The translations under genes were made by a program, and so were the position numbers. A DNA stretch of 64,000 bases from Chloroflexota bacterium (GTDB lineage Bacteria; Chloroflexota; Anaerolineae; Anaerolineales; Villigracilaceae): assembly GCA_019873655.1 (NCBI GenBank), contig JAIOAU010000009.1:1-64000 (forward strand). The letters are read 5' to 3'. Below are positions 7,230-23,379 of the stretch, one piece after another; within the stretch, counting starts at the first letter, position 1; every line of letters begins with the position of its first letter. The notes beneath the pieces were generated by a model. That model ran no database searches, was not told where the DNA came from, and saw nothing but the letters and a program-made list of their open reading frames with translations.

Positions 7230-8435
7230 TTGGAGATTACGCTTTCCCCGCTGTCCCCCTCTGTCACCAAGACCTTCTACACCAGTTTGTTCGACCTCCA
7301 AGACGGAGAGCGAGTGCGCACTTGCCTGCAATGCGGCACGTGCAGCGGCATTTGTCCCTTTGGCTACATCATGAAATTCCCGCCGGGGAAAATCATCGGC
7401 GCGATCCGCGCCGAAATCTTCGACCACGTCCTGAAAACCGACTCGGTCTGGATGTGCGTCTCGTGCAACGCCTGCGCTTCTTTCTGCCCGTCGAACATCC
7501 CCATCACCCGCGTGCTCATGACCCGTACCAAGGAGGAGATGATTCTGGCAGGCAATGTGCCCAGCGAACTGCAGGCCGCCCTGGAAAACACCCAGCGTTA
7601 CGGCAACCCGCTAGGCGAGTCGCCGCGCAAACGCGCCGACTGGACCCTCGGCCTGCAGCCGGAGGTAAACATCCTCGGCAAAACGCGCCAACCGGTTGAC
7701 GTTCTTTGGTACGTTGGGGACTATGCCTCTTACCATTCCCGCATGCAACCGGCCACACGGGCGCTGGCCAAAATTTTGAACGCCTTGGGAGTCAATTTCG
7801 GGATTCTCGGGCCGGAAGAATACAGCGACGGCGATTCGCAGCGCCTGGCCGGCGAACGCGGCCTGTTCGAAATGATGGCGCAGAAGAACGGACAGGTATT
7901 CCGAAAGTACAAATTCAATCAGATCATCACCACCGACCCCCACGCCTACAACGCCCTGAAGAACGAATATCCGGCGCTGGGCGTCGAATATCCGGTGCAA
8001 CACTACACGCAATTCCTGTTCGAACGCATCGAACAAATCAAGCCCTTGCTGAAGAATGAAATCAAGGCCAAGGTCGCCTATCATGACCCCTGCTATCTGG
8101 GGCGAGTCAACGGCATTTTCGATGAACCTCGCGCTTTACTGAGCGCCATCCCCGGCGTCGAACTGGTGGAGATGTCGCACCAGCGCATCAACAGCCTGTG
8201 CTGCGGAGGCGGGGGCGGCGGTATGTGGCTGGATGGCTTCCAGTGGGAAAAGGCGCACACCCGCCTGTCGGAATGGCGCGTCCGCGAGGCGGTGGCAGTC
8301 AACACCCAAATCCTGGCGGTTGCCTGTCCTTATGAGCCGCCGCGCTTCGAGGACGCCACCAAGACCATCCAGGCCGCCAGTCAATTGAAAGTGCGAGAAA
8401 TCGCCGAACTCTTGGCCGAATCGATGGATCTCTAG
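7230..8435 (+). CDS. HdrD/GlpC-like soluble iron-sulfur protein, Etf-associated
   Basis: 401 aa from TTG 7230, which has AAGGAGG six bases upstream. Two ferredoxin-type [4Fe-4S] sites come first (CLQCGTCSGICP near residue 35, CVSCNACASFCP near 80). A CCG-domain region follows. The first CCG copy has lost its cysteines: WYVGDYAS where family members have GC, then YSDGD, then TTDPHAYN where CPHCFN is usual. The second keeps HDPCYLGR and LCCGGGG, but ends ACPYE, lacking the last Cys. No membrane segment. It is followed 11 bp later by etfB and is a soluble paralogue of the membrane protein at 10199. Probably passes electrons to or from EtfAB; partner unknown. Confidence 0.85.
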   Translation: MEITLSPLSPSVTKTFYTSLFDLQDGERVRTCLQCGTCSGICPFGYIMKFPPGKIIGAIRAEIFDHVLKTDSVWMCVSCNACASFCPSNIPITRVLMTRTKEEMILAGNVPSELQAALENTQRYGNPLGESPRKRADWTLGLQPEVNILGKTRQPVDVLWYVGDYASYHSRMQPATRALAKILNALGVNFGILGPEEYSDGDSQRLAGERGLFEMMAQKNGQVFRKYKFNQIITTDPHAYNALKNEYPALGVEYPVQHYTQFLFERIEQIKPLLKNEIKAKVAYHDPCYLGRVNGIFDEPRALLSAIPGVELVEMSHQRINSLCCGGGGGGMWLDGFQWEKAHTRLSEWRVREAVAVNTQILAVACPYEPPRFEDATKTIQAASQLKVREIAELLAESMDL

Positions 8436-8446
8436 GAGGAGAAACG

Positions 8447-9208
8447 ATGAAAATTGCTGTGCCCATCAAGTTTGTGCCCGATCTGGTCGAAGAATTGACC
8501 ATTGACCCATCGGGAACCGCTCTGGACACCACCTGGCTGCGCCTCATCATCAACGAACTCGACGACCACGCCGTCGAGCAAGCCATCTTATTGAAAGAAC
8601 GCTCTGGCGGAGAAGTAACGGTGCTCTCCGCCGAGGCCGACGGCGTGGACGATTTCCTCTTCACAGCCGCCGCCAAAGGCGCCGACCGCCTCATCAAACT
8701 GACAGGAGATTTCAGCGCCGCCGACAACCATGCCCTCGGACGCGCCTTCGCCGATGTGATCAAAGAACTGCAACCCGACCTGATCCTGACCGGCGTGCAG
8801 GCCCACAACGATCTGGACGGTTCCGTCGGCCCGCTGCTGGCGGAATACCTGGGACTTCCTTATGTAGGCTATGTGGCTGGCATTGCGCTCGATGGCAACA
8901 AAGTGGTCGCCCGCAAAGAGTACGCCGGCGGGTTGGTCGCCGAAGTAGAAGTCAAACTGCCCGCCGTTTTGGGCATCCAGGCTGCCGAACAACCGCCGCG
9001 CTACGTCGCCTACAGCAAGATTCGCCAGGTCATGGGAACGGCCAAAATCGAAGAGCGGCCCGTCAGCAATCTGGAAAGCAGCGGCGGCGTCGTGGTCGGC
9101 CGTCTGTTCCAGCCAGAAGTCGCCGAACGGGCAACCATGCTCGAGGGCAGCCCCGAAGATGTAGCCGACAAACTGGTCGGACTCTTCAAAGAATTGGGTA
9201 CGCTTTAA
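8447..9208 (+). CDS. etfB: Electron transfer flavoprotein subunit beta
   Basis: 253 aa, normal EtfB length. It starts MKIAVPIKFVPD and contains the nucleotide-binding segment in the form GVQAHNDLDGSVGPLLAE, where common EtfB has GKQAxDxDxxQVGPxLAE. With EtfA it forms a FAD/AMP (or two-FAD) heterodimer that carries electrons between acyl-CoA dehydrogenases or similar enzymes and an Fe-S acceptor. AGGAGGAG precedes the ATG. It sits between two Fe-S oxidoreductases of one family. Whether this Etf bifurcates cannot be settled from motifs alone. Confidence 0.92.
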   Translation: MKIAVPIKFVPDLVEELTIDPSGTALDTTWLRLIINELDDHAVEQAILLKERSGGEVTVLSAEADGVDDFLFTAAAKGADRLIKLTGDFSAADNHALGRAFADVIKELQPDLILTGVQAHNDLDGSVGPLLAEYLGLPYVGYVAGIALDGNKVVARKEYAGGLVAEVEVKLPAVLGIQAAEQPPRYVAYSKIRQVMGTAKIEERPVSNLESSGGVVVGRLFQPEVAERATMLEGSPEDVADKLVGLFKELGTL

Positions 9209-9220
9209 GCAGGAGGCGCT

Positions 9221-10177
9221 ATGAGTCAGGATATTTTCGTCGTCATCGAACATCTGCGCGGACAGGTTGCGGATGTTTCCTATGCCATGCTGGCCGGGGC
9301 GCGTCAGTTGTCTAAGGCCAGCGGCGGCGAGGTGGTCGCCGTCCTCCTTGGCCACAACGCCCAGGGACTGGCCAGCAATCTGGCGGCCGATCGCGTCCTC
9401 TACGTGGATCATCCCGCCCTGGCCGAATTCACCTCGGACGCCTACCAAATCGTACTGGCCGGCCTGATTCAGGAACACGCCCCGCGCGCCGTTCTGTTCG
9501 GCCATAGTTCGATCGGCATGGACTTGGCCAGCAGTCTCTCGGCCAGACTGGGAATCCCGGTTGTCAACTCCTGCCGCACCTTCACCGACGACGGCAAGTT
9601 CGTCAGCCAGATTTGCGGCGGCAAAATCATGGCCGAGGGCAACCTCCCCTCCCCCGCCCTGGCAACCATGATCCCCGGCGGCTACAAAGCCGAAGAGGGA
9701 CAAAGCGCCCAGACGCCTCCGCTGACGGCGGTCTCTGCCCCCGCCCTGGACAATCTGCGCGTCGCCGTCAAGCAATACATCGAACCAGACACCTCCGATG
9801 TGGACATCAGCAAAGAAAAAATGCTGGTTTCGATCGGGCGCGGCATCCAAAACAAAGACAACATCGAACTGGCCAATGAACTGGCGGATGCCCTCGGCTG
9901 TGCAGTCAGCGCCTCCCGGCCGGTGGTGGACCAGGGCTGGCTGCCAACCACCCGCCTGGTTGGGAAGTCCGGCAAGCATGTCAAGCCCAAAATCTATCTG
10001 GCGCTGGGCATCAGCGGCGCGCCCGAACACGTCGAAGGCATGGGCGAGAGCGAGGTCATCGTCGCCGTCAATACCGACCCCAACGCTCCCATCTTCAACA
10101 TCGCCAAGTACGGCACCACGATCGACATGTTCGACCTGCTCCCCGTGTTGATCGAAAAGGTCAAGCAAGCCAAATAA
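9221..10177 (+). CDS. etfA: Electron transfer flavoprotein subunit alpha
   Basis: 318 aa, typical for EtfA. The C-terminal FAD domain is clear: VGKSGKHVKPKIYLALGISG (about residue 247), HVEGM, then VNTDPNAPIF and a closing LLPVLIEKV. The N-terminal domain is more divergent. AGGAGG precedes ATG 9221, 12 bp after etfB. Together with EtfB and the membrane protein at 10199 it should link flavoprotein dehydrogenases to the quinone pool. Confidence 0.93.
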   Translation: MSQDIFVVIEHLRGQVADVSYAMLAGARQLSKASGGEVVAVLLGHNAQGLASNLAADRVLYVDHPALAEFTSDAYQIVLAGLIQEHAPRAVLFGHSSIGMDLASSLSARLGIPVVNSCRTFTDDGKFVSQICGGKIMAEGNLPSPALATMIPGGYKAEEGQSAQTPPLTAVSAPALDNLRVAVKQYIEPDTSDVDISKEKMLVSIGRGIQNKDNIELANELADALGCAVSASRPVVDQGWLPTTRLVGKSGKHVKPKIYLALGISGAPEHVEGMGESEVIVAVNTDPNAPIFNIAKYGTTIDMFDLLPVLIEKVKQAK

Positions 10178-10198
10178 CTTCACAGGAGCGCGTGGGAT

Positions 10199-12181
10199 AT
10201 GCCTATCCGAGAGACCTTCTGGAACATCCCGCACTGGGCAGAAATTGCCCAGTATATTGCGGCTTTAGTCACGGCGATCATTTTCATTGCCGGTATTACC
10301 CGCCGCGTTTTGCGCTGGCGCAAAGGCCGGCCCGAAAAACGCTCCGGCCATTTTTGGAAACGGATCGGCGCTCTCATCACGCAAGTCTTCGGCCAGCAGC
10401 GCACCCTGGATGAAAAATTCCCCGGCATCATGCACTTCTCGATCTTCTGGGGAATGCTGGTGCTGGCGGCCGGCACAGCCCTGGCGACCATCGACTGGGA
10501 CGTCACGCACCTGTTCTTTGGATTTCAAATTCTGAAAGGCGGCGTTTACATTGCCTTCGAACTGATGCTCGACGTCCTCGGCCTGCTGGTCGTCCTGGGC
10601 CTGGGCATGGCCATCTACCGTCGCTACATCGCCCGGCCAGCGCGGCTGCAAAACTTCCCGGTGAAGAAACTGGCCGGCGACGACACCTACGTCCTGGTCA
10701 TGCTGGCCTTCATCACGCTCAGCGGCTACCTGACGGAGGGCCTGCGCCTGGCCGTCACCCAGCCGGATTGGGCCCCCTGGTCGCCGGTCGGAAACGCCAT
10801 CGCAGCCCTCTTCCTCTCTCTCGGCGATCCCACCAACCAGACCCTGCACCTGATCATTTGGGGCATGCACATCGCCACCGCCTTTGGCGTGTTGATCAGC
10901 CTGCCCTTTACCAAACTGTTCCACATCTTCTCGGTGCCGCTCAACATCTACTTCCGCTCGCTGGAGCCGGCCGGCGCGCTGCGGGCGGCCAACATGGACG
11001 GCGGCATGGGCGTCAAAGAGTGGACGCAGTTTACCTGGAAGCAACTGCTGGACTTCGAGTCCTGCACGCGTTGCGGCCGCTGCCAGGACGTTTGTCCGGC
11101 CTACGCCAGCGCCCAGGTCCTCTCGCCGCGCAACATGATGGTCAAACTGGACGATCATCTGTGGGAGAAAAAACCGCGCGCCCTGCACGGCGAGGTCGTC
11201 TCGGTAGACGAACTGTGGGCCTGCACCACCTGCCGCGCCTGCGTTCAGGTCTGCCCGGCCTTCATCGACCACGTCACCACCTTCGTTGACCTGCGCCGCC
11301 ATCTGGTCGATCAAGGAAAAATGGACCAGATGCTCCAGGACGCCCTCAGCAACCTGGGCCGTTATGGCAATTCCTTCGGCCAGTCGGACCGCATGCGCGC
11401 CAAGTGGACGATGGGCTTGCAACCGCCGGTCAAAGACGCCCGCCGAGAGCAAGTCGAATACCTGTGGTTTGTAGGCGATTACGCCTCCTACAACGCCACG
11501 CTGACCGACGTCACCCGCAAGACCGCCGAAGTCTTCCACAAACTGGGGTTGAATTTTGGCATCCTCTACGAGAGCGAACGTAACTCCGGCAACGACGTGC
11601 GGCGGGTAGGCGAGGAGGGCCTGTTCGAGATGCTGGTCGACAAGAACAGCCAGGTGTTGAGCAAATGCAAATTCCAGGCGATCGTGACCACCGACCCGCA
11701 TTCGTACAACACGCTGAAGAACGAGTACCCCGCCAATGGCAACGGCCGCTATCCGGTGTTGCACTACAGCGAATTGCTCGATCAACTGATCGCCGCCGGG
11801 AAACTCAAATTCAGCAAAAAACTGGGCTACAAAGTCACCTACCACGACCCCTGCTACCTGGGACGCTACAACGGCGTCTACGACGCCCCGCGGCGGGTGA
11901 TCGAAGCAACCGGCTGCGAGTTGGTCGAGATGCCCCGCCATCGTGAGCGCGGTTTCTGCTGCGGCGCAGGCGGCGGGAGAATTTGGATGGAAGAAAAAGA
12001 GGTCAAAGAAAGGCCCAGCGAATCCCGCATCCGCGAGGCGGTCGCGCTGGAGGGCGTACAGACCTTCATCGTCGCCTGCCCCAAAGATTTGACCATGTTC
12101 CGAGACGCGGTCAAAACGACCGGCAACGAACAACGGCTGGAGGTCAAGGACCTGATCGATTTGGTGGCAGAGGCCCTCTAG
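10199..12181 (+). CDS. EtfD-like membrane iron-sulfur oxidoreductase (NarI-like domain fused to Fe-S domains)
   Basis: 660 aa. The N-terminal ~260 residues hold about five membrane helices of the NarI/cytochrome-b type with candidate haem histidines (IMHFSIFWG, LHLIIWGMH, KLFHIF). Two ferredoxin sites follow (CTRCGRCQDVCP near 285, CTTCRACVQVCP near 345), then the CCG region. As in the protein at 7230, the first CCG motif is stripped of cysteine (FVGDYAS, RNSGND, TTDPHSYN). The second keeps HDPCYLGR and FCCGAGGG but ends ACPKD. EtfD-type proteins pass Etf electrons to menaquinone. Follows etfA by 21 bp. Confidence 0.87.
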   Translation: MPIRETFWNIPHWAEIAQYIAALVTAIIFIAGITRRVLRWRKGRPEKRSGHFWKRIGALITQVFGQQRTLDEKFPGIMHFSIFWGMLVLAAGTALATIDWDVTHLFFGFQILKGGVYIAFELMLDVLGLLVVLGLGMAIYRRYIARPARLQNFPVKKLAGDDTYVLVMLAFITLSGYLTEGLRLAVTQPDWAPWSPVGNAIAALFLSLGDPTNQTLHLIIWGMHIATAFGVLISLPFTKLFHIFSVPLNIYFRSLEPAGALRAANMDGGMGVKEWTQFTWKQLLDFESCTRCGRCQDVCPAYASAQVLSPRNMMVKLDDHLWEKKPRALHGEVVSVDELWACTTCRACVQVCPAFIDHVTTFVDLRRHLVDQGKMDQMLQDALSNLGRYGNSFGQSDRMRAKWTMGLQPPVKDARREQVEYLWFVGDYASYNATLTDVTRKTAEVFHKLGLNFGILYESERNSGNDVRRVGEEGLFEMLVDKNSQVLSKCKFQAIVTTDPHSYNTLKNEYPANGNGRYPVLHYSELLDQLIAAGKLKFSKKLGYKVTYHDPCYLGRYNGVYDAPRRVIEATGCELVEMPRHRERGFCCGAGGGRIWMEEKEVKERPSESRIREAVALEGVQTFIVACPKDLTMFRDAVKTTGNEQRLEVKDLIDLVAEAL

Positions 12182-12220: not shown

Positions 12221-14218
12221 ATGAATGGGTTGAAAGGGATCGCCAAGAGATTGAATTTTCTGAATGGGCGTTTTGTTCGACTGCCCATTGCCGCCAGACT
12301 GACCCTAAGTTTTCTCTCGGTCATCCTGCTCAGCAGCCTCATTTTCACTCTGGTCGGCACTCAGATCATTACCAACCTCATCAAGACAGAAGCCGAGGAG
12401 CGCGTCCGTAACGACCTGAACGCGGCTCGCCTGATCTACCTCGATGCGCTCCAAAATGTGCGCGACGCGGCCGAATTCACGGCGGTCCGAAATATCACCC
12501 GGCAAATGATCGGCGGCCGTTATCTGCGCACTTACGTCGACGAGATGATTTGGTTCAAGGTGAGCGAAGGCCTGGACATTCTGACGATCACAGACAGCAA
12601 TGGCATTGTTGTCTTTCGGACGAATGATCCCAACCGGGTGGGCGACGACCAAAGCCATCTCGAACTGGTCGCCGCCGTCATGCGAAGAAGAACACCCGTC
12701 GCGGCGACGGTGATTCTCTCGGCCGATGACCTGCGCGCCGAATCGGAACTCTTGGCCGAACGCGCTTACTTTCGGTTCGTTGACACGCCCATGGCCCGAC
12801 CACGCCCCGAAACCGAAGAGACAGCCGGGATGGTGCTGATGGCCGCCGCGCCCGTCTTCGACGAAGAAGGCAATTTCATCGGCGTCGTGTACACGGGCAA
12901 ACTGCTGAACCGGAATTACGAAATCGTCGACGAAATCAAGCAGACCGTCTTTCAAGGCGTTGTCTACGAAGGCAAAGACATCGGAACCTCGACCATTTTC
13001 CAGGACGACGTGCGAATTTCGACCAACGTCTACAACGAAGACGGCTCGCGGGCGATCGGTACGCGCATCGCCGAAGAGGTATACAATCGAGTCGTCGTTG
13101 AAGGTCAGCCCTGGCTGGGGCGCGCTTATGTCGTCAACAACTGGTACATTTCCGCCTACGAACCCATTTACGGATTCGATGGCAGCATCAAAGGAATTCT
13201 GTACGTTGGCATTCTAGAACAGAAATACCTGGACATTAAAAACCGAGCCATTCTGATCTTCATGGGCATCACGCTGACGGGTGTCCTGGTCTCTATATTC
13301 ATCACCGTCCTGATCTCGCGCCGAATCTCCCAGTCGGTCAATGTCTTGGTCAACGCCTCGCAAAAACTGGCTGGCGGCAACCTGAACGTGAGAGTCGAGA
13401 AAATCTCCAATGATGAATTCGGCGAACTGGCAGAGACCTTCAACTACATGGCCCAGGCGCTACGCGAGCGCGACGAACGATTGAAAGAATATGCCAAAAG
13501 AAAAATCATGGAGTCGGAGCGCCTGGCCTTGATCGGCCAACTGGCTGCCAACGTGGCCCACGACCTGAACAATCCTCTGCAGGGAATTGTCACCTACTCC
13601 TATCTGCTTCTGGAAAGCGAGACCTGCCGGCCGGAAGAGAGAGAAAACGTGCAGAAGATCGTCACCCAGGCCAACCGCTGCCGGGACATCATCCGCGGCT
13701 TGCTCGATTTCTCCCGCCAGAAAAAGCCGGACAAGACCTTGTGCGACGTTAACAGCCTGCTTACCTCGTGCGTCTCGCTGGTCGAACGACAGGCCTTGTT
13801 TCACAACATCAAGGTCAACATGGATTTGGAAGAAAACCTGCCGCGGGTCGTGCTGGACCCGTCCCAAATGGAACGGGTTTTCTTGAATCTCATCATCAAC
13901 GCCGCCGAGGCTATGGACGGCAACGGACAACTCTTCCTGTCGACTCGTCACAACCGCGAGGGCAATTGCGTCGAAATCAAAGTCCAGGATACCGGCCACG
14001 GCATCAGCGAAGAAAACCTGGAAAAGATTTTCGATCCGTTCTTTACCACCAAAGAGACCGGCCACGGCGTTGGCCTAGGACTGGCAATCAGTTTTGGTAT
14101 CATCAAGGAACACAACGGCAACATAACCGTGGAAAGCGCCCCCGGCGAGGGCGCCACATTTACCGTCAGCCTTCCACTGACGATGGAAACGATTGGTCCT
14201 GAAAAACATGGAGAATAG
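12221..14218 (+). CDS. Membrane sensor histidine kinase with Cache domain
   Basis: 665 aa. One membrane helix at about 26-48, a large extracytoplasmic double-Cache-type sensor region (about 50-335, including ILTITDSNGIVVFRTND and a late WYISAYEP segment), a second helix (about 342-366), HAMP, then HisKA with VAHDLNNPLQG (His near residue 447) and an HATPase (NLIINAAEAM, DTGHGISEENL, GVGLGLAISFGII). It probably senses a small ligand outside the membrane. It overlaps the hybrid gene and lies between the etf and hdr genes, so it is likely co-transcribed and may control their products. Confidence 0.92.
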   Translation: MNGLKGIAKRLNFLNGRFVRLPIAARLTLSFLSVILLSSLIFTLVGTQIITNLIKTEAEERVRNDLNAARLIYLDALQNVRDAAEFTAVRNITRQMIGGRYLRTYVDEMIWFKVSEGLDILTITDSNGIVVFRTNDPNRVGDDQSHLELVAAVMRRRTPVAATVILSADDLRAESELLAERAYFRFVDTPMARPRPETEETAGMVLMAAAPVFDEEGNFIGVVYTGKLLNRNYEIVDEIKQTVFQGVVYEGKDIGTSTIFQDDVRISTNVYNEDGSRAIGTRIAEEVYNRVVVEGQPWLGRAYVVNNWYISAYEPIYGFDGSIKGILYVGILEQKYLDIKNRAILIFMGITLTGVLVSIFITVLISRRISQSVNVLVNASQKLAGGNLNVRVEKISNDEFGELAETFNYMAQALRERDERLKEYAKRKIMESERLALIGQLAANVAHDLNNPLQGIVTYSYLLLESETCRPEERENVQKIVTQANRCRDIIRGLLDFSRQKKPDKTLCDVNSLLTSCVSLVERQALFHNIKVNMDLEENLPRVVLDPSQMERVFLNLIINAAEAMDGNGQLFLSTRHNREGNCVEIKVQDTGHGISEENLEKIFDPFFTTKETGHGVGLGLAISFGIIKEHNGNITVESAPGEGATFTVSLPLTMETIGPEKHGE

Positions 14219-15834: not shown

Positions 15835-16398
15835 ATGAGCGAAACCATTTCATTCCGTCAAGAGGTCGCTAATCTCTTGTACGCTTCCGAAGGAGAACCG
15901 CTCAATACCTGTATTCAGTGCGGAACCTGCTCGGGAACCTGCCCCGTGGCGCCTTACATGGATTACACGCCGCGACAAATCATCGCCATGATCAATCAGG
16001 GCATGAAAGAACAGGTTCTGGAGAGCAACACCTTCTGGTACTGCGCTTCCTGCTACCACTGCACCGTGCGTTGTCCTCAAGACATCAATATCACCGACTT
16101 GATGTATGCGCTGAAGCGCTATTCGATCTGGAAGGGACAACACAAAGAGGGCCTGATTGGGCCAACCTTCTCGGAAGCGTTCGTGAAAATGATCGTGCGC
16201 ACCGGACGTTCCTTCGAGCCTGTGCTGGCTCCCTCTTACATCTTTAGTTTTGGGATGCGCGAATTGTTGCTCGAAGTCCAAGGGGCCACCGAACTCCTGC
16301 TAAAAGGCCGGTTGCCTCTCCTGCCGTCGCGCATCAAGCGCCTGGATAATTTCAAGCGCATGCTTGGGCGCATCATCCCGATGGGAGGTCTCGAATGA
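15835..16398 (+). CDS. hdrC: Heterodisulfide reductase-like subunit C
   Basis: 187 aa with two [4Fe-4S] ferredoxin motifs, CIQCGTCSGTCP (near residue 24) and CASCYHCTVRCP (near 66), and the usual helical tail. HdrC wires electrons from HdrA to the HdrB catalytic centre. Its stop overlaps the hdrB start (ATGA), showing translational coupling. The natural substrate in bacteria without CoM/CoB is unknown, so the Hdr name reflects family and not reaction. Confidence 0.93.
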   Translation: MSETISFRQEVANLLYASEGEPLNTCIQCGTCSGTCPVAPYMDYTPRQIIAMINQGMKEQVLESNTFWYCASCYHCTVRCPQDINITDLMYALKRYSIWKGQHKEGLIGPTFSEAFVKMIVRTGRSFEPVLAPSYIFSFGMRELLLEVQGATELLLKGRLPLLPSRIKRLDNFKRMLGRIIPMGGLE

Positions 16399-17303
16399 AA
16401 AAAGAATTCGCCTACTTCCCGGGATGTTCGCTGGAAAAAATGGCCATCAGTTACCACATGTCGGCCATTGAGACGACCAAGAAACTCGGCGTTCACCTGA
16501 AAGAACTCGAGGACTGGAATTGTTGCGGCGCTACCACTTACTCGTACATCGATGAACTGCTGGCTTATACCCTGTCGGCCCGCAACCTTGCCATTGCCGA
16601 ACAGACCGGCCTGGACGTAGTCGCCCCTTGCAGCGCCTGCTACAAAAATATGTACTTCACGGCGGCGCACTTGAAAAAAGACCCCGACCTGGCCGAACAC
16701 ATCAACTTTGCTCTCGAAGAGGACAACCTCCATTTTACTGGAAGCGTTGGCGTCAAGCATCTCATCGAGGTGTTCGCCTATGACATCGGTCCCGAAGAAT
16801 TGAAGAGCAAAGTTGTCAAGCCGCTAACAGGCTTAAGAATAGCGCCCTATTACGGCTGTCAAATCGTCAGGCCGCAAAAAGACCACGAGGACGTGGAACT
16901 GCCTCAGTTCTTCGAAGAGATTCTCTCCGCCATTGGAGCCACGCCGGTCAACTACCCGCTCAAAATGCGCTGTTGCGGAGGATCATTGATTATCTCCAGC
17001 CGCCCAGCCGCCTTGAGTATGGTGCGCAACTTGCTACAATGCGCCGTAGACTCACAAGCAGACGTGGTTGCAACCGCCTGCCCCATGTGCCAAGTCAACC
17101 TGGAGGTCTACCAGCAACAGGTCAACCAAGAATTCGGTACAAACTTCTCCGTGCCGATCATGTACTTCACGCAACTGATCGGCCTGGCGCTGGGAATTCC
17201 ACAGAAAAAACTGGGCATCGGCAAAGAATTCGTCGCCGCGACCCCGGCCCTGCTTCGTCTCGAACAGGCTGGCGCTGCCCCAGATCAAGAGACAAAGGAG
17301 TAA
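16395..17303 (+). CDS. hdrB: Heterodisulfide reductase-like subunit B
   Basis: 302 aa. Both CCG motifs, which in HdrB hold two non-cubane [4Fe-4S] clusters, look complete: FPGCSLEKM, WNCCGATT and CSAC for the first; YYGCQIVRP, MRCCGGSL and CPMCQVN for the second. This contrasts with the two Etf-linked paralogues upstream. Expected role is disulfide reduction or another two-electron step driven by HdrA. Start ATG 16395 overlaps hdrC. A 3-bp gap separates it from hdrA. Confidence 0.93.
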   Translation: MKKEFAYFPGCSLEKMAISYHMSAIETTKKLGVHLKELEDWNCCGATTYSYIDELLAYTLSARNLAIAEQTGLDVVAPCSACYKNMYFTAAHLKKDPDLAEHINFALEEDNLHFTGSVGVKHLIEVFAYDIGPEELKSKVVKPLTGLRIAPYYGCQIVRPQKDHEDVELPQFFEEILSAIGATPVNYPLKMRCCGGSLIISSRPAALSMVRNLLQCAVDSQADVVATACPMCQVNLEVYQQQVNQEFGTNFSVPIMYFTQLIGLALGIPQKKLGIGKEFVAATPALLRLEQAGAAPDQETKE

Positions 17304-17306
17304 CGT

Positions 17307-19316
17307 ATGGAAAAGAAAGAAAGGATTGGCGTATACGTTTGTCACTGCGGCACCAACATTGCGGGCGTCGTCAATGTGGGCGAAGTCAGCACATGGGCCG
17401 CAGAGAATCTGAAAGAACAGGGCGTGGTCATCTCGCGCGATTACAAGTTCATGTGCTCTAGCCTGGGCCAAGAACTCATCCAGAAAGACATCAAGGAGCA
17501 CGGACTGACGCGCGTGGTGGTGGCCGCCTGCTCGCCGCATCTTCACGAACAAACCTTCCGCAACGCCTGCAAAGGCGCAGACCTGAATCCTTATCTATGC
17601 GAATTGGTCTCCATCCGGGAGCAATCCTCCTGGGTGCACACCGACAAGGTCGCAGCGACCGAAAAATCGAAGGCTCTAATTGCCGGAGGCGTGGCGCGCG
17701 TCGTCCATCATGAGCCGCTCGAACCGCTGCGCGTCCCGATCCACCCGGCCACGCTTGTTGTCGGCGGCGGCATCGCCGGCATCCAGGCCGCCCTCGAGAT
17801 TGCCAACGCGGGGTATCCGGTCTACCTGGTCGAGCGCGAACCTTCCATCGGCGGCCACATGGCCCAGTTCGACAAGACCTTCCCCACCCTCGACTGCTCG
17901 GCCTGCATCCTGACCCCCAAGATGGTCGAGGCGGGCAGCCACCCCAACATCACCCTGCTGACCTACTCCGAGGTCGAGAAAGTGGACGGGTACGTGGGCA
18001 ACTTCGTGGTCACCGTCCGCAAGCGCGCCCGCTCGGTCAACGAAGAACTCTGCACCGGCTGCGGCATCTGCTGGGAAAAATGCCCGAAGAAAGTCGTGGA
18101 CAACGTTTTCGAAGCCGGCATGGGCACTCGCAAAGCGATTTACGTTCCTTTCCCACAGGCTGTGCCCAAGTACCCGGTCATCGACCGCGAGAACTGTACC
18201 TATTACATCAAAGGCACCTGCAAAGCCTGCGAGAAATTCTGCCCCACCAACGCCATCGACTTTGCTCAGGAAGACCAAATCCTGAACATCGAAGTGGGCA
18301 ACATCATCCTGGCCACCGGCTACGAACTCTTCGACGCCCGCCGAATCACCCAATACGGCTATGGTCGCCTGGCGAACGTCTTCACCAGCCTGGAGTTCGA
18401 GCGCCTCTCCAACGCGGCCGGGCCGACGGGCGGCAACATCGTCCTGCGGGACGGCAAGACCACGCCCAAAGTGGTAGGCATCGTCCACTGCGTGGGCAGC
18501 CGCGACAAGAACTACAACGAATACTGCTCGGCGATTTGCTGTATGCAGAGTTTGAAGTTCGCCCACCTCGTCCACGAGCGGACGGGCGCGGAAGTCTACA
18601 ACTTCTACATTGACATCCGCACCCCGGCCAAGGGTTACGAAGAGTTCTACCACCGCCTGCTGGAGGAGGGTACGCACTTCATCCGCGGCAAAGTAGCCGA
18701 AATCACCGACGCCGTGCGCCTGCCCGGCGAAGAAGGCAAACTCATCGTCCAGGTCGAAGATACACTGACCGGCAACCAGTTACGCGTCCCAGTGGACATG
18801 GTCATCCTTTCGGCCGGTCTCGAACCCCGCCGCGACGCCAAAGAGGTCGCCAAGAAATTTGGCATCTCCTGCTCGGCCGACGGCTGGCTGATCGAACGTC
18901 ACCCGAAACTGGACCCGGTCGCCACCGTGACCGAGGGCATCTACATCGCCGGCTGCGTGCAAGGGCCGAAGGACATCCCTGCCAGCGTGGCGCAGGGCGC
19001 GGCTGCGGCGGCGCGCATCCTGGGCAAAATCCAGCAAAAGGAAATTGCCCTCGAACCCGTGCGCGCCTCCATCAACCAGGAACAATGCTCCGGCTGCCGC
19101 ATTTGCAACAACCTGTGCCCGTTCAACGCCATCCTCTTCCACGAAGACCGCATGGTCAGCGAGGTCAATCCGGCGCTGTGCCAGGGCTGCGGCACCTGTG
19201 TGGCGGCCTGCCCGGCGGGCGCCATCAGCGGCACCGGCTTCTCCAACGAGCAAATCCTCTCGCAAATCGAGGGCCTCTTGCTCTTGAATATCCCTAAGAA
19301 GGAGACAGTGGCATAA
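17307..19316 (+). CDS. hdrA: Heterodisulfide reductase-like subunit A, bifurcating flavoprotein
   Basis: 669 aa, normal HdrA length. The N-terminal domain has VYVCHCGTNI; then FAD binding VVGGGIAGIQAALE (near residue 150), an inner ferredoxin-like set (CTGCGICWEKCP near 250, plus CKACEKFCP), and a C-terminal 2x[4Fe-4S] insertion (CSGCRICNNLCP, CQGCGTCVAACP near 595-635). HdrA carries the FAD where electrons from hydrogenase are split between ferredoxin and HdrB. No in-frame TGA/selenocysteine is needed. It is followed 30 bp later by mvhD, the usual link to the hydrogenase. Confidence 0.95.
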   Translation: MEKKERIGVYVCHCGTNIAGVVNVGEVSTWAAENLKEQGVVISRDYKFMCSSLGQELIQKDIKEHGLTRVVVAACSPHLHEQTFRNACKGADLNPYLCELVSIREQSSWVHTDKVAATEKSKALIAGGVARVVHHEPLEPLRVPIHPATLVVGGGIAGIQAALEIANAGYPVYLVEREPSIGGHMAQFDKTFPTLDCSACILTPKMVEAGSHPNITLLTYSEVEKVDGYVGNFVVTVRKRARSVNEELCTGCGICWEKCPKKVVDNVFEAGMGTRKAIYVPFPQAVPKYPVIDRENCTYYIKGTCKACEKFCPTNAIDFAQEDQILNIEVGNIILATGYELFDARRITQYGYGRLANVFTSLEFERLSNAAGPTGGNIVLRDGKTTPKVVGIVHCVGSRDKNYNEYCSAICCMQSLKFAHLVHERTGAEVYNFYIDIRTPAKGYEEFYHRLLEEGTHFIRGKVAEITDAVRLPGEEGKLIVQVEDTLTGNQLRVPVDMVILSAGLEPRRDAKEVAKKFGISCSADGWLIERHPKLDPVATVTEGIYIAGCVQGPKDIPASVAQGAAAAARILGKIQQKEIALEPVRASINQEQCSGCRICNNLCPFNAILFHEDRMVSEVNPALCQGCGTCVAACPAGAISGTGFSNEQILSQIEGLLLLNIPKKETVA

Positions 19317-19346: not shown

Positions 19347-19847
19347 ATGACAGACACTCCCGAAACCCAACCCTTCGACAAGGCTCAGGGCGAGTCCTTT
19401 GAACCCGTCATCATCGGCTTCACCTGCAACTGGTGCTCCTACCGGGCGGCCGATATGGCAGGCACGGCGCGCATGAAATATGCGCCCAATGTGAGGTTGA
19501 TCCGCCTCATGTGTTCCGGCCGCCTCGACCCGACCTTCGTTCTCAAAGCCTTTGCCGGCGGCGCCGACGCGGTCCTGATCTCCGGCTGCCACCCGGGCGA
19601 CTGCCACTACATCAACCAGAACTACAAGATGCTGCGCCGCTTCCACCTGCTGAAGCGCGTTCTCCAGCAGATGGGCATCGAACCCGAACGCCTCAAACTC
19701 CTGTGGGCCAGCGCAGCCGAAGGCGCAATCTTCGCAGAAGAAATCAATAAATTCGTGGAACAGGTGCGGCCGCTGGGACCGTTGAACTGGAAGCCAGGCA
19801 ACGGCGCCCACGTGGAAGCCCCTGTCCATGAGGAGGTGCCGGCATGA
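19347..19847 (+). CDS. mvhD: MvhD-type hydrogenase iron-sulfur subunit
   Basis: 166 aa with one [2Fe-2S] site built from CNWCSY (near residue 30), MCSGR (near 52) and GCHPGDCHY (near 78). MvhD connects the hydrogenase small subunit to HdrA. The first ~20 residues are a low-similarity extension. Its stop overlaps the mvhG start (ATGA). Context and motifs agree fully with an Hdr-Mvh complex. Confidence 0.93.
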   Translation: MTDTPETQPFDKAQGESFEPVIIGFTCNWCSYRAADMAGTARMKYAPNVRLIRLMCSGRLDPTFVLKAFAGGADAVLISGCHPGDCHYINQNYKMLRRFHLLKRVLQQMGIEPERLKLLWASAAEGAIFAEEINKFVEQVRPLGPLNWKPGNGAHVEAPVHEEVPA

Positions 19848-20830
19848 GCAAACCGAAATTCGCAATGTACTGGGCCGCTTCCTGCGGCGGCTGTGAAATC
19901 GCCGTCCTCAACATCCACGAGAAAATCCTGGATGTGGACGCCAACTTCGAGGTCGTCTTCTGGCCGGTGGCCATGGACGCCAAGTACAAAGACGTGGAGG
20001 CCATGGAAGACGGCGCCATCCTGCTGACCCTCTTCAACGGCGGCATCCGCAACGACGAGAACGAACACATGGCCAAACTCCTGCGCAAGAAGTCGCAGAT
20101 TCTGGTCGCCTTCGGCTCCTGCGCCTGCGAGGGCTGCATCCCCGGCCTGGCAAACTTCTCGCCTATCCAGCAGGTCGTGGACACCGCCTTCGGCACCATC
20201 TCGACCGACAACCCGAATAACGTCCGCCCGCAGACCTCCTACGAGATGCCCGAAGGCGCAATTCACATCCCGACCCTCCTGCCCGTTCTCAAGACCCTCG
20301 ACCAGGTGGTGGACGTGGACTATTACATGCCCGGCTGTCCGCCCGAATCGCATCAGATTGCAGCGGTCATTGACCTGGTCATCCAGGTTCTGCAAGGCAA
20401 GGCGCAACTGCCGCCCAAGGGTTCGGTCATCGGCGCCGGCGGTTCGACCGTCTGCGACGAATGCCCGCGCAAGCGCAATGTCAAGACCATCAAGGAATTC
20501 GGCCGCATTCAATTGACCGAAGCCGACCCGGAACTGTGCCTGCTCGAACAGGGCATCCCGTGCAACGGTCCGGCCACCCGCAGCGGATGCGGCGCGAAAT
20601 GCCCGTCGGCCGGGGCGCAGTGCATCGGCTGCTACGGCCCCGCCGAGGGCGTGGTGGACTACGGCGCTCGTCTGATCGCCGCCTTTGGTTCCGTGATCGA
20701 CGCCGACAAGCCGGAAGACATCGAACGCATCCTCGACGGCCTGGTGGACCCCGCCGGGCAGTTCTATCGCTTCAACCTGGCCGGCTCGCTCCTGCGCGCC
20801 GCCAAACCGGCCTGGAAGTCGGGCGACTAA
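19844..20830 (+). CDS. mvhG: [NiFe] hydrogenase small subunit, MvhG type
   Basis: 328 aa. Proximal-cluster cysteines are in SCGGCEIAVL, GSCACEGC and MPGCPPESH. Medial and distal cluster ligands lie in the C-terminal part (CDECPRKR, CNGPATRSGCGAKCP, CIGCYGP). There is no twin-arginine signal, so the enzyme is cytoplasmic, as for group 3c hydrogenases. It passes electrons from the NiFe site to MvhD. The start overlaps mvhD, and mvhA follows after 15 bp. Confidence 0.94.
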   Translation: MSKPKFAMYWAASCGGCEIAVLNIHEKILDVDANFEVVFWPVAMDAKYKDVEAMEDGAILLTLFNGGIRNDENEHMAKLLRKKSQILVAFGSCACEGCIPGLANFSPIQQVVDTAFGTISTDNPNNVRPQTSYEMPEGAIHIPTLLPVLKTLDQVVDVDYYMPGCPPESHQIAAVIDLVIQVLQGKAQLPPKGSVIGAGGSTVCDECPRKRNVKTIKEFGRIQLTEADPELCLLEQGIPCNGPATRSGCGAKCPSAGAQCIGCYGPAEGVVDYGARLIAAFGSVIDADKPEDIERILDGLVDPAGQFYRFNLAGSLLRAAKPAWKSGD

Positions 20831-20845
20831 TTTGGAGGTAGAGAG

Positions 20846-22318
20846 ATGACACAACGAATTACGATTGACCCCATCACCCGCCTGGAAGGCCATGGCAAGA
20901 TCGAAATCTTCCTCAACGACGAGGGCGAGGTCGCCAACACCTACTTCCAGATTCCCGAACTGCGCGGCTTCGAGCGCTTCGTCGTTGGCCGGCCGGTGGA
21001 GGAAATGCCCCTGCTGACCAACCGCATCTGCGGCGTCTGCCCCGAAGCGCACCACATGGCCGCCGCCAAGGCCGCGGATGCCGTCTATCACGTGGACATC
21101 CCCTCGACGGCCAAGAAACTGCGCGAACTGCTCTACATGGCCTTCTACTGCACCGACCACACCACCCACTTCTACGCTCTGGCCGGCCCCGACTTCATCG
21201 TTGGGCCAGACGCCCCGGTGGCCGAACGCAACATCCTGGGCGTCATCCACAAGGTCGGGCTGGAAATCGGCGGCAAGGTCATCCAGATGCGCAAGTACGG
21301 CCACACCGTGGTCGAGATGATTGGCGGCCGCAAGGTTCACCCCTGCACGTCCATCCCCGGCGGCCTGACCAAGGGCATCACCGAAGAACAGCGCAAGGAA
21401 ATCGAAGAGATGGGCCGCTGGGCCATCGAGTTTGCCCAGTTCAGCCTGAAAGCCTTCAACGACATCGTCCTGAGCAACAAGACCTACCTCGACCTGATTC
21501 TGGGCGACATCTACACCCACCAGACCTACTACATGGGCATGGTGGATGAGAACAACCACCCCAACTTCTACGACGGCAAGGTGCGCGTCGTCGGCCCGGA
21601 CGGCAAGGAACTGGTCAAGTACGCCCCGCACGAGTACACCGAGAACGTCGCCGAGCACGTCGAACCCTGGACGTACCTGAAGTTCCCCTACCTGAAGAAA
21701 GTCGGCTGGAAGGGCTTCGTGGACGGACCCGATTCCGGCGTCTACTGCGCCACGCCGCTCTCGCGTCTCAACGCCGCCGACGGCATGGCTACCCCGCGCG
21801 CCCAGGAAGAATACGAGAAGATGTACAAGACCCTGGGCGGCAAGCCGGTGCATCAGCGTCTGGCCACCCACTGGGCGCGGCTCATCGAACTGCTCTACGC
21901 CGCCGAGCGCTGGGTGGAACTGGCCACCGACCCGGAGATTACCTCGCCGAACTACCACGCCATCCCGACCGAGAAACCGACCGAGGGCGTGGGCATCGTC
22001 GAGGCCCCGCGCGGCACCCTGACGCACCACTACTGGACCGACGAGCGCGGCGTGGTGACGAAAGCGAATCTCATCGTCGGCACGACCAACAACTACGCCC
22101 CCATCACCATGTCCATCCAGAAGGCCGCCAAAAGCCTCATCAAGAAGGGGACGGTTGTCAACGAAGGTCTGCTCAACATGGTCGAAATGGCCTTCCGCGC
22201 CTACGACCCGTGCTTCGGCTGCGCCACCCACTCCCTGCCCGGCCAGATGCCGCTCGAAATCACCATCCGCAACGCCGACGGCGAAATCGTGGACGTGCTG
22301 AAGCAGTTCGTGGATTAG
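20846..22318 (+). CDS. mvhA: [NiFe] hydrogenase large subunit, MvhA type (group 3c-like)
   Basis: 490 aa catalytic subunit. The NiFe ligands are RICGVCPEAHH (L1, near residue 55) and DPCFGCATH (L2, near 453). About 24 residues follow the L2 His and form the removable C-terminal tail, which fits with a maturation protease gene next door. It should oxidise or evolve H2 in the cytoplasm, coupled through MvhG/D to HdrA. TGGAGGTAG precedes the ATG. Confidence 0.95.
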   Translation: MTQRITIDPITRLEGHGKIEIFLNDEGEVANTYFQIPELRGFERFVVGRPVEEMPLLTNRICGVCPEAHHMAAAKAADAVYHVDIPSTAKKLRELLYMAFYCTDHTTHFYALAGPDFIVGPDAPVAERNILGVIHKVGLEIGGKVIQMRKYGHTVVEMIGGRKVHPCTSIPGGLTKGITEEQRKEIEEMGRWAIEFAQFSLKAFNDIVLSNKTYLDLILGDIYTHQTYYMGMVDENNHPNFYDGKVRVVGPDGKELVKYAPHEYTENVAEHVEPWTYLKFPYLKKVGWKGFVDGPDSGVYCATPLSRLNAADGMATPRAQEEYEKMYKTLGGKPVHQRLATHWARLIELLYAAERWVELATDPEITSPNYHAIPTEKPTEGVGIVEAPRGTLTHHYWTDERGVVTKANLIVGTTNNYAPITMSIQKAAKSLIKKGTVVNEGLLNMVEMAFRAYDPCFGCATHSLPGQMPLEITIRNADGEIVDVLKQFVD

Positions 22319-22323
22319 TCGCA

Positions 22324-22388
22324 TAGTCGGATAGTCGGGAGTCGAATAGTCGGACAGACGACTATAAGACTATTCGACTATCCGACTA
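22324..22388. repeat. Inverted repeat built from TAGTCGGA-like units
   Basis: Left arm 22324-22351 and right arm 22368-22388 are complementary over 21 bp, with a 7-base insert (GGAGTCG) in the left arm and a loop of 16 bases. The arms themselves are short direct repeats of ATAGTCG(G/A). It fills the gap between mvhA and the maturation protease gene, inside the operon. It could be a REP-like element, an RNA processing or stabilising hairpin, or a partial terminator; there is no T run. Confidence 0.7.
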
Positions 22389-22399
22389 TTTTGCTTGTC

Positions 22400-22864
22400 A
22401 TGAAAACGTTGGTCATTGGCCTGGGGAATCCCATTCTCGGCGACGACGGCGTCGGCTGGCGCGTGGTGGAGGAGGTCGCCCGGAGAACGGCCGGCCGGCC
22501 CGAGGTCGAGACGGATTGCGTCGCCCTGGGCGGGCTGAGTCTGATGGAGCGACTGACCGGCTACGAGCGCGTCATCCTGGTGGACGCCATCCACACCGGC
22601 CAGAAACCGGCCGGAACGGTCAGCCGCTTCCTCCTGAGCGACCTGCCCGACCTGACGGCCGGCCACTCGGCCTCGGCGCACGACACCTCGCTGCGCAACG
22701 CCCTCAACGTCGGACGGAGCATGGGCATCCCCCTGCCCGAGGATTCGCAGATTCATGTGATCGCCGTCGAGGTCCAGAACGTGTACGATTTTTCCGAGAA
22801 ACTCTCGCCGCCCGTCGAAGCGGCAGTCAGCGTTGCTGTCGAAAGCGTGCTACAATTGCTTTAG
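22400..22864 (+). CDS. Hydrogenase maturation protease
   Basis: 154 aa HyaD/HycI/FrcD-type endopeptidase that clips the C-terminal tail of the NiFe large subunit after metal insertion. Motifs: VIGLGNPILGDDGVGW with the first metal Asp at the N-terminus, VDAIHTG (second Asp, near residue 67), and SAHDTSL (His, near 97). ATG 22400 chosen; an in-frame TTG lies three codons upstream. Only one hydrogenase is in the window, so MvhA is its natural substrate. Confidence 0.92.
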   Translation: MKTLVIGLGNPILGDDGVGWRVVEEVARRTAGRPEVETDCVALGGLSLMERLTGYERVILVDAIHTGQKPAGTVSRFLLSDLPDLTAGHSASAHDTSLRNALNVGRSMGIPLPEDSQIHVIAVEVQNVYDFSEKLSPPVEAAVSVAVESVLQLL

Positions 22865-22879
22865 GAAAAGGAGATTGCC

Positions 22880-23338
22880 ATGGTTTCCCCCGAACTCTTG
22901 CGCCGTTATCCCTTCTTCGCCCTGCTTACCGAAGACCAGTTGAAGGCGATTTCGATGATCGCCGACGAGAAAACCTACCCGAAGGACACGCTGCTGGTCA
23001 AAGAAGACACCGCCGCCGAAAAGTTGATGCTGCTCATCGAAGGCGACGTGGACCTGATTTACAGCGGAGGCGGCGAAGGCGCGATCGTCAACGCCCTGGT
23101 CGGCTCGATTGCCCCGGGCGAGGTGCTGGGCGTCTCCTCGCTCATCGAACCGTATGCTTACATCTCCTCGGCGCGCGCCACGCAGGATGTGCGCGTGGTC
23201 GAGATCGACGGGAAGGCCCTGCGGGCGCTCATGGAAATCGACCCCAAACTGGGCTACCGGGTGATGTGTAACACCGCCGCGGCGGTGCTGGAACGGCTGA
23301 AATATACGCAAGTCGAACTGGCCGCCGCCAGAGCATAA
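22880..23338 (+). CDS. Cyclic-nucleotide-binding-domain protein without DNA-binding domain
   Basis: 152 aa, a single cNMP-binding beta-roll (about residues 10-130) with GEVLGVSSL and a following SARATQDVRVVEI in place of a strong consensus phosphate-binding cassette. It has no helix-turn-helix, unlike Crp/Fnr regulators, so it is likely a protein-level sensor. It is the last gene of the hydrogenase run, 15 bp after the protease gene with AAAAGGAG upstream. Ligand (cAMP, other, or none) cannot be told. Confidence 0.82.
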   Translation: MVSPELLRRYPFFALLTEDQLKAISMIADEKTYPKDTLLVKEDTAAEKLMLLIEGDVDLIYSGGGEGAIVNALVGSIAPGEVLGVSSLIEPYAYISSARATQDVRVVEIDGKALRALMEIDPKLGYRVMCNTAAAVLERLKYTQVELAAARA

Positions 23339-23342
23339 ACAA

Positions 23343-23379
23343 CAGACCGGGCTCCTCGAGGAACCCGGTCTGCTTTTTT
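23343..23379 (+). terminator. Strong intrinsic terminator ending the Etf/Hdr/hydrogenase run
   Basis: Stem CAGACCGGG (23343-23351) pairs with CCCGGTCTG (23364-23372), with extra pairing in the loop (TCCTCGAGGA), and a run of six T follows (23374-23379). It lies four bases after the stop of the cNMP-binding gene and marks a clear 3' end. Confidence 0.92.

Follow-up and report, generated by a model that had tools for sequence, protein, structure and literature searches.

A run of fifteen genes in the window (the whole 64,000-nucleotide stretch of DNA that we analyzed) joins EtfAB and the membrane protein EtfD to an HdrA-hydrogenase set. We consider it fairly probable that this run encodes a reversible bifurcating system for H2, ferredoxin, and quinone, with Etf and EtfD in place of the heterodisulfide branch, all of the electron flow being predicted from sequence. 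HdrA complexes occur in bacteria without known CoM or CoB. The direct evidence consists of the gene content, the motifs, the recurrent joining of the genes, their co-variation, and a search of the organism's own genome in which no acyl-CoA dehydrogenase was detected. Throughout, papers given by PMC number are cited from excerpts of their text.

The fifteen plus-strand genes of the window's open reading frame list occupy positions 7230 to 23338 (Table 1); some neighbors overlap, by 4 or 26 nt, and the widest gap is 72 nt. The TTG start of CCG1 lies 6 nt 3' of an AAGGAGG. Past the last gene, a hairpin with a 9-pair stem, an inner 3-pair stem, and a CTTTTTT tail folds at -22.1 kcal/mol (z, -5.4), and 0 of 200 shuffles were equally good. 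A preliminary description had reported fifteen rightward genes with short gaps and a strong terminator, and the reading frames, distances, and folding confirm that layout. A simple terminator scan reported the hairpin on the minus strand alone; folding supports the plus strand. Genes were named from Pfam and NCBIfam, with NCBIfam scores for the Hdr, Mvh, and Etf proteins mostly under the models' own cut-offs.

Table 1. Features of the gene run and its divergent neighbor
Feature	Positions	Strand	Basis or remark
MenA-like UbiA prenyltransferase, divergent neighbor	5954..7060	-	All matches below cut-offs
CCG1 (CCG/Fer4 protein), first gene of run	7230..8435	+	HdrC-like two-[4Fe-4S] domain plus EtfD/HdrB-like CCG domain; soluble; resembles sHdrB3; Pfam/NCBIfam
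EtfB	8447..9208	+	PF01012; best solved relatives 1o94_C, 5ol2_B
EtfA with FAD-binding domain	9221..10177	+	PF01012, PF00766
EtfD/EMO-like membrane protein	10199..12181	+	NarI-like domain, two [4Fe-4S], one CCG cluster site; Pfam/NCBIfam; 9ojn match
sCache_3 histidine kinase, part of insert	12221..14218	+	Pfam
Receiver-histidine kinase hybrid	14193..15305 (alternative ATG 14208)	+	Pfam
Stand-alone receiver domain	15349..15762	+	Pfam; no output domain found
HdrC	15835..16398	+	TIGR03290 E 1.4e-25, below model cut-off
HdrB, two complete CCG motifs	16395..17303	+	TIGR03288 E 3.1e-65, below model cut-off
HdrA, FAD protein, proposed bifurcation site	17307..19316	+	NF040770 E 1.4e-247, below model cut-off
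MvhD	19347..19847	+	PF02662 E 5.7e-52
MvhG, hydrogenase small subunit	19844..20830	+	NF045875 E 7.4e-64, below model cut-off
MvhA, group 3c [NiFe] large subunit	20846..22318	+	NF041785 E 7.5e-127, below model cut-off; L1/L2 motifs
Hydrogenase maturation protease	22391..22864	+	PF01750; TIGR00072 above cut-off
Cyclic-nucleotide-binding (cNMP) domain protein	22880..23338	+	PF00027
Intrinsic terminator, hairpin plus T run	23343..23379	+	Folding and shuffle test

In the mechanism that we favor, the whole run would be one electron transfer system. MvhAGD would oxidize H2 and pass electrons through MvhD to HdrA, a step that is established for homologous complexes and is assigned here by homology. 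The HdrA flavin would then split each pair, sending one electron to ferredoxin and the other into a higher-potential branch, which in the joined family would not be a coenzyme disulfide. Electrons in that branch may leave HdrA by way of CCG1, through its HdrC-like domain and then its CCG domain, and go on to EtfAB, EtfD, and a membrane quinone; in the window HdrBC may receive HdrA electrons alongside or instead of CCG1. The net reaction would be 2 H2 + Fd(ox) + Q -> Fd(red) + QH2, and at H2 levels close to those in the environment it would be reversible. All of these transfers are predictions of the model, as are the physical contacts between the proteins, the identity of the quinone, and the direction of flow.

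The Hdr and hydrogenase proteins keep their cofactor motifs. In the type A proteins defined below, the HdrA cluster cysteines, those of the N-terminal domain included, are kept in 33 of 33 (the window's among them) except for three variable cysteines; the N-terminal and inner cysteines are kept in 13/13 direct-type and 4/4 EtfD-CCG1-HdrA-type proteins, one direct-type protein being without the last four. We take the conserved cysteines to be cluster ligands. The window's HdrC has two [4Fe-4S] motifs, and MvhA carries ICGVCPEAH and AYDPCFGCATH, compared with ICGxCxxxH (L1) and AYDPCxxCATH (L2) described for group 3c (PMC6085437). The methanogen HdrABC-MvhAGD complex (5odc and relatives) has the same subunits and motifs, with the HdrA flavin as the bifurcation site. 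The window type differs in being joined to EtfAB-EtfD and CCG1, and HdrBC often lies outside the run.

Next, the neighborhoods of 80 close EtfD relatives, all on named contigs, were compared. In 59 of these loci the run continues downstream from EtfD to HdrA; 11 contigs stop before the informative region past EtfD, so that 59 of the remaining 69 loci keep the order. This recurrence is more than chance, and the joining of the hydrogenase block to the Etf relay is found in many distant bacteria. The other ten loci, labelled Bacteroidota or Calditrichota, have no HdrA downstream of EtfD in the run, and eight of them contain lipoate-ligase genes, as in sHdr loci. The linked loci comprise 35 with a kinase and HdrCB insert before HdrA (type A, which includes the window), 20 that are joined directly (type B; 55 together with type A), and 4 with a CCG protein before HdrA in the order EtfD-CCG1-HdrA (type C). 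Neither HdrBC nor kinases stand between EtfD and HdrA in 24/59, and 23 of those 24 have no HdrB or HdrC anywhere on the examined stretch (L150 has HdrBC divergently upstream). Because HdrBC is absent between the halves in so many loci, the constant core is HdrA with CCG1, EtfAB, and EtfD; HdrBC and the kinases may be an optional add-on, a tentative part of the wider reading given at the end. The earlier claim that the two halves belong together is thus strengthened, the order holding without the intervening genes and HdrA co-varying with the Etf half (below). The kinases, which the preliminary description had noted between the halves, are not the joining element.

The donor end of the run is less constant. 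No Mvh genes follow HdrA in L097, L125, L132, and L133. In L099, HdrCBA-MvhD is followed by a 274-aa protein and then by formate dehydrogenase alpha pieces in place of MvhGA, a putative swap of formate dehydrogenase for hydrogenase as the donor. Formate dehydrogenase can stand in for hydrogenase in HdrABC-MvhAGD systems (PMC6085437).

A different account, which we judge rather unlikely, is that two side-by-side systems have only their regulation in common, with HdrABC-Mvh using its own disulfide-type acceptor, CCG1-EtfAB-EtfD serving another donor, and HdrA borrowing HdrBC from a second set where the run is without it. The window's HdrBC is complete (ten motif cysteines of HdrB kept in 34/34) and could itself accept electrons from HdrA, with Etf working apart; two-component genes do part the halves, and the genome carries a second EtfAB. 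Each of the five directly linked genomes inspected (G015, G039, G080, G110, and G137) has a further HdrB-HdrA-Mvh set, located separately and without Etf, whose HdrBC could serve the Etf-linked HdrA; the pattern also looks as if Etf had replaced HdrBC in one of two sets. Among the matches listed, 84 genomes have this hydrogenase, and in 74 of them its contig shows no EtfD of the subtype, a figure in which broken contigs and partial lists of matches lower the EtfD count. Whether the halves occur apart received a divided answer: HdrA lies downstream in the run in 12 of the 13 genomes listed with the EtfD subtype (the 13th, G125, is on a 3 kb contig and lay outside the 12 checked), but four of the eight genomes of the window's own family that carry the hydrogenase (G027, G202, G179, and G130) have it with HdrCBA and without Etf in the stretches examined. 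Two independent systems fit poorly with the 24 linked loci in which no HdrBC intervenes and with differing gene orders that still put HdrA beside EtfD or CCG1. The HdrC-like domain of CCG1 also argues against them, as does the failure to find PF00441 in three carriers of the joined cassette (G000, G023, and G110).

The CCG1 ferredoxin domain is 40% identical to HdrC over 78 aa in the window (medians of 43 to 44% in the three linked types), and that of EtfD is less alike, at 23% (medians of 21 to 24%). A structure model of CCG1 matches EtfD 9ojn at Z 33.9 and HdrB chains at Z 21.5 to 22.8. From these likenesses, we propose CCG1 as a candidate adaptor between HdrA and Etf. HdrA co-varies more strongly with CCG1 than with MvhA: the partial correlations (n = 21, confounded by descent) were 0.81 for HdrA-CCG1 given MvhA and EtfD, 0.55 for HdrA-MvhA given CCG1 and EtfA, and -0.22 for MvhA-CCG1 given HdrA. 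The likeness of EtfB to 1o94, presumably a plain electron shuttle Etf, fits a relay role and proves nothing.

The window's EtfD matches M. smegmatis EtfD (9ojn) at E 1.9e-85. The haem-histidine positions H79 and H242, kept in 79/79 aligned proteins, align with His78 and His241 of that ETF:menaquinone oxidoreductase, with which the window protein shares the haem-His membrane domain, two [4Fe-4S] clusters, and probably a noncubane-type CCG site (PMC13083937). Of the noncubane D2 ligands, C552, C587, C588, C627, and H501 are kept, and the C712 position is D630. The window's EtfD further differs in adjoining an HdrA set and in having D427, N462, D499, and S502 at the linear [3Fe-4S] D1 cysteine positions, a reference feature known from one solved structure. 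By eye, the C29 paralogue in the same genome has cysteines at the D1 positions.

In mycobacteria, EtfD links Etf to beta-oxidation (PMC13083937), and the preliminary description had suggested that Etf here brings beta-oxidation electrons to the hydrogenase or quinone pool. We regard this as very improbable. Profile searches with working controls gave 0 matches to PF02771 and PF00441 in the window's genome, which is 99.82% complete, so beta-oxidation is an unlikely Etf donor there; the suggestion is contradicted for this organism unless an unrelated acyl-CoA-oxidizing enzyme feeds Etf. G023 and G110 likewise had 0 PF00441 matches. Elsewhere the route has some support, since 9 of 12 carriers of the joined cassette have acyl-CoA dehydrogenase matches; PF00441 was matched in 17/20 genomes of the comparison panel.

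As for the quinone, a search of the same genome for menaquinone markers found no MqnA/D and no MenD, and MenG below the cut-off only. The MenA-like prenyltransferase beside the run, also upstream in 8/80 loci, might supply the quinone.

The same circuit may run mainly in reverse, with electrons from quinol and reduced ferredoxin merging at HdrA to form H2; this confurcation is compatible with the favored mechanism, and we think it unlikely to be the main direction. From reported potentials of -414 mV for H2 and about -500 mV for ferredoxin (PMC9304861), or about -450 mV for ferredoxin and -74 mV for menaquinone (PMC10734219), we calculate a mean acceptor potential of about -262 to -287 mV. That range matches H2 at roughly 1 to 5 Pa; under the H2 pressures of syntrophic settings, the reaction would therefore be able to proceed either way. 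Less in keeping with reversal is a second [NiFe] hydrogenase in the window's genome, the small subunit of which appears Tat-like by eye and suggests another H2-quinone route.

Type II sHdr sulfur oxidation loci also combine a fused, CCG1-like shdrB3 and etfAB with an HdrA-type protein (PMC11582611). EtfD comes next in the sHdr-like loci examined here, and CCG1, which adjoins EtfAB in the window, is 47 to 51% identical to its counterparts there (n = 5). This common CCG1-EtfAB-EtfD set (L143 and L086) raises the improbable alternative that HdrBC/HdrA acts on a sulfane or disulfide carrier, with Etf/EtfD as the outlet. However, HdrA, that of the window included, is full length and in most cases adjoins a hydrogenase, and homologues of LbpA, LipS1, LipS2, lipoate ligase, and H protein occur in 0/55 type A/B loci versus 5 to 8 of 10 sHdr-like loci. 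The shdrC1B1AHB3 plus etfAB pattern was accordingly not seen in those 55 loci, and an LbpA/GcvH-like match occurs in one of four type C loci.

Other systems resemble the run in part. The EtfABCX (Fix) complex is likened to it by proposed function, with low-potential electrons going to ferredoxin and high-potential electrons to menaquinone (PMC10734219); its donor is NADH, in contrast to H2 or formate in the window type, and here the bifurcating flavin is expected in HdrA. For NPL-UPA2, in which hydB-hdrAC lies beside etfAB, the authors suggest an Hdr-like complex cooperating with Etf (PMC6305446). That set replaces Mvh, has HydB for HdrB, and comes with no mention of EtfD in the excerpts, whereas the window has both Mvh and EtfD. 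In Desulfobacterium autotrophicum, a membrane HdrD-like protein, HdrF3, is clustered with etfBA, and electron transfer out of Etf by way of Hdr is proposed; the excerpts mention neither HdrA nor Mvh for that cluster (PMC2702500). For the Hdr-Flox complex, which is related, the electron carrier is called unknown or uncharacterised (PMC6687939, PMC5606693).

Taken more widely, the loci may represent an undescribed, widespread class of HdrA bifurcating systems, a possibility that we advance tentatively. CCG1 would dock on HdrA via its HdrC-like domain and pass electrons to EtfAB and EtfD. The whole would act as an H2 (or formate):ferredoxin:quinone oxidoreductase and could run backwards to make H2 from quinol and ferredoxin, with HdrBC and kinases optional and the same outlet in type II sHdr. 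The cassette offers CCG1, EtfAB, and EtfD as testable candidate acceptors in bacteria without the methanogen coenzymes. If the reading is true, H2, ferredoxin, and the quinone pool would be linked in one reversible step, and hydrogen and sulfur metabolism would have one Etf/EtfD outlet in common. It would then bear on the low-potential electron balance of Anaerolineae and other uncultured anaerobes.

ORF calls and profile matches confirmed the coordinates and gene names that the preliminary description had given for the cassette, a run of 15 forward genes separated by intergenic gaps of no more than 72 nt and followed directly by a strong plus-strand terminator. Its first product, CCG1, is a soluble protein of 401 aa that combines a CCG domain with an HdrC-like domain for two [4Fe-4S] clusters. 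The MvhA of the window contains the group 3c motifs as printed in PMC6085437.

We surveyed 249 genomes of the class, with identity thresholds of 49% or more for the EtfD subtype and 57% or more for MvhA. Among the matches listed, at least 13 genomes carried EtfD of the window subtype, 10 of them with an MvhA orthologue on the same contig. HdrA lies downstream of EtfD in the same run in 12 of the 13 listed genomes, the window's included, the 13th (genome G125, a 3-kb contig) being left out. MvhA itself occurs in at least 84 class genomes, at least 10 of which have this EtfD on its contig; this shared-contig count is a lower bound, as contigs are broken and only the matches listed were counted.

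A scan of named genomes kept the best 80 of 482 EtfD relatives, with genes called by a custom ORF caller and BLAST against the window proteins. Because two peptide patterns selected these 80 loci, the HdrA-linked share holds for close EtfD relatives only, and some loci duplicate genomes that also have a genome handle (e.g., L111/L069 and L142/L070). The window order, with kinases and HdrC/HdrB between EtfD and HdrA, was found in 35 loci (type A; one of HdrC/HdrB was uncalled in 4 of them), HdrA immediately after EtfD in 20 (type B), and the order EtfD-CCG1-HdrA in 4 (type C). In 11 loci the contig stops before the informative stretch, and in 10 HdrA is not next to EtfD. All type A labels are Chloroflexota, for which three less usual names were checked, one of them spelled Brevifilum. 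Types B and C, nearly all from metagenome bins, are also labelled Planctomycetota, Acidimicrobiia, Omnitrophota, Verrucomicrobiota, and Ignavibacteria, and one just "bacterium." A locus labelled Sumerlaeota (L089) holds a cassette start whose EtfD is 95% identical to that of the window; it is probably a mis-binned contig.

Types B and C join EtfD and HdrA with no kinase insert, which rules out the kinases as the link between the two halves. Together with HdrCB, the kinase genes seem to form a single block; this block is placed differently in L150, as are the kinases in L165 (see the table), and the receiver protein of the cassette has no output domain.

Coordinates of the cassette and of related features in other loci
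Feature	Sequence	Coordinates	Strand	Remark
Cassette	Window	7230-23338	+	Terminator directly after the end
CCG1	Window	7230-8435	+	First gene
EtfD	Window	10199-12181	+	Membrane protein
EtfD N-terminal membrane part	Window	10199-10700	+	Compared by eye with L070, L071, L074, L075
Kinase genes and HdrCB	Window	12221-17303	+	Between EtfD and HdrA, as in type A
MenA-like prenyltransferase	Window	5954-7060	-	Divergent upstream of the cassette
Kinase/HdrCB block	L150	1781-6572		Divergently upstream of CCG1
Kinases	L165	8449-11940		After MvhG, running to contig end
EtfD-HdrA-cNMP protein, two ORFs	L104	2269-6700		ORFs match successive parts of Tat-type formate dehydrogenase-N alpha
Two ORFs covering FdhA	L099	20329-21972		Break near residue 136
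Second [NiFe] hydrogenase	L173 (contig C7 of the window's own genome)	5635-10444		Large subunit; small subunit Tat-like by eye

Of the 59 linked loci, 40 showed MvhA (30 of type A, 8 of type B, and 2 of type C), and a contig edge cuts many of the others. Mvh was not seen after HdrA in L097, L125, L132, and L133. In L099, MvhD is followed by a 274-aa protein and then by pieces of formate dehydrogenase alpha, and in L104 formate dehydrogenase pieces come after the cNMP protein. The break between the two L104 ORFs may reflect a selenocysteine TGA taken for a stop codon, and the break in the L099 FdhA may likewise be a selenocysteine codon. Across these loci, the constant part is HdrA with the Etf half, and the donor module is variable.

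A second, separate HdrB-HdrA-Mvh set without Etf was found in 5 of 5 directly linked genomes (G015, G039, G080, G110, and G137), in a check that left out G004, G023, and G116. This second set fits a division of work in which one HdrA operates with HdrBC and another with Etf. The same sets make it possible that HdrBC is borrowed, and the Etf-linked HdrA could thus draw its HdrBC from the second set.

We propose that CCG1 is the adaptor between HdrA and Etf. Its ferredoxin domain shares 40% identity over 78 aa with the window HdrC, and that of EtfD 23% over 94 aa; across types A, B, and C, the medians were 43 to 44% for CCG1-HdrC and 21 to 24% for EtfD-HdrC. The closest solved relatives of CCG1 are an EtfD (9ojn) and an HdrC (5odc). 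Its predicted model (pLDDT, 80.8; weak near residues 78 to 81 and 327 to 342) superposed on 9ojn with a Z score of 33.9 and an rmsd of 2.6 over 367 residues, and residues 156 to 401 matched HdrB chains with Z scores of 21.5 to 22.8. Outside the ferredoxin domain, only cysteines C288, C324, C325, and C366 are conserved (62 of 62). EtfD retains the haem histidines H79 and H242 together with C552, C587, C588, and C627, and D427, N462, D499, and S502 occupy its D1 cysteine positions by the 9ojn ligand assignments of PMC13083937. Because the peptide patterns selected the 80 loci, the conservation of D427, D499, H501, and S/T502 is partly by construction. Judged by eye, the EtfD N-terminal membrane part seems to exist in two dissimilar versions joined to the same C-terminal half, which suggests that this domain has been exchanged.

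Evolutionary distances for 21 sets of six proteins each (20 of the 80 loci plus the window) gave correlations, shared descent still included, of 0.92 for HdrA-CCG1, 0.87 for HdrA-EtfA, 0.77 for HdrA-MvhA, and 0.72 for HdrA-EtfD; the shuffle P value of 0.0005 is the lowest attainable in this test. Because the MvhA-CCG1 correlation of 0.66 falls to -0.22 given HdrA, the comparison, which still contains shared descent, would put HdrA at the joint between the Mvh and Etf halves. In the HdrA tree, cassette HdrAs form no clade against the unlinked ones: five unlinked HdrAs (L082 to L085 and L088) nest among them, and a sixth (L174) pairs with L104 from the same genome. Linked and unlinked loci are also interspersed in the MvhA tree, where up to 18 rows were called unlinked from match lists alone rather than full surroundings, so the hydrogenase seems to be exchanged.

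The 10 loci without an adjoining HdrA are labelled Bacteroidota (9) and Calditrichota (1). In L143, a short HdrA, a family-less 255-aa protein, CCG1, a GcvH-like protein, two radical-SAM proteins, and a lipoate ligase precede EtfB-EtfA-EtfD, and homologues of its marker genes occur in 5 to 8 of the ten. This gene set resembles type II sHdr, which the passages of PMC11582611 that define it describe as shdrC1B1AHB3 with etfAB, without mention of EtfD there. The sHdr markers were found in 0 of 55 type A and B loci, and we therefore rejected full type II sHdr membership for the cassette; the four type C loci gave one LbpA/GcvH-like match. In class member L086, a CCG protein, a short HdrA, and a family-less protein precede CCG1-EtfB-EtfA-EtfD, and L087 has a similar order. 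From these loci, CCG1-EtfAB-EtfD looks like a movable outlet common to two kinds of HdrA complex.

Beta-oxidation, named in the preliminary description as a possible Etf partner, is rejected as the donor in the window's genome (3.04 Mb, 99.82% complete), where a profile search whose controls matched in 10 and 9 of 14 detected no acyl-CoA dehydrogenase domain. We also compared 20 genomes, of which 12 carry the cassette and 8 belong to the window's family but lack it. In this panel PF00441 was missing in 3, all carriers (G000, which is the window's own genome; G023; and G110). Acyl-CoA dehydrogenase matches were present in 9 carriers, with one weak gene each in G015 and G080, and a fatty-acid role is possible in other carriers. 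On the quinone side, no MqnA/D or MenD markers were found in the window's genome, and MenG gave sub-threshold methyltransferase matches only. Across the panel, MqnA/D was found in 0 of 20 genomes, MenD exceeded the cut-off in 3 (G164, G130, and G213), and MenG did so in 17 (all except G000, G111, and G004). A MenA-like prenyltransferase, found divergently upstream in 8 of the 80 loci as well, adjoins the cassette even though its genome has no MenD, MqnA/D, or over-threshold MenG; our guess is that a naphthoquinone precursor is salvaged. Elsewhere the genome encodes another EtfAB and another full-length EtfD-like protein, and a 421-aa EtfD-like Fer4/CCG protein lies between the subunits of its second hydrogenase.

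In the proposed mechanism, electrons from H2 would pass through MvhA, MvhG, and MvhD to HdrA, which would send one to ferredoxin and the other to CCG1 (or HdrBC) and thence through EtfAB and EtfD to quinone. The literature searched, which subscription papers mostly lay outside, gave no account of HdrA-Mvh linked with EtfAB-EtfD; the nearest precedents found are those in passages of PMC6305446 and PMC2702500. The individual parts are already known, and we would place their combination within HdrA-based electron bifurcation. By our own arithmetic from potentials printed in PMC9304861 and PMC10734219, the proposed reaction runs downhill when H2 is high and reaches balance at about 1 to 5 Pa H2, and either direction is therefore possible.
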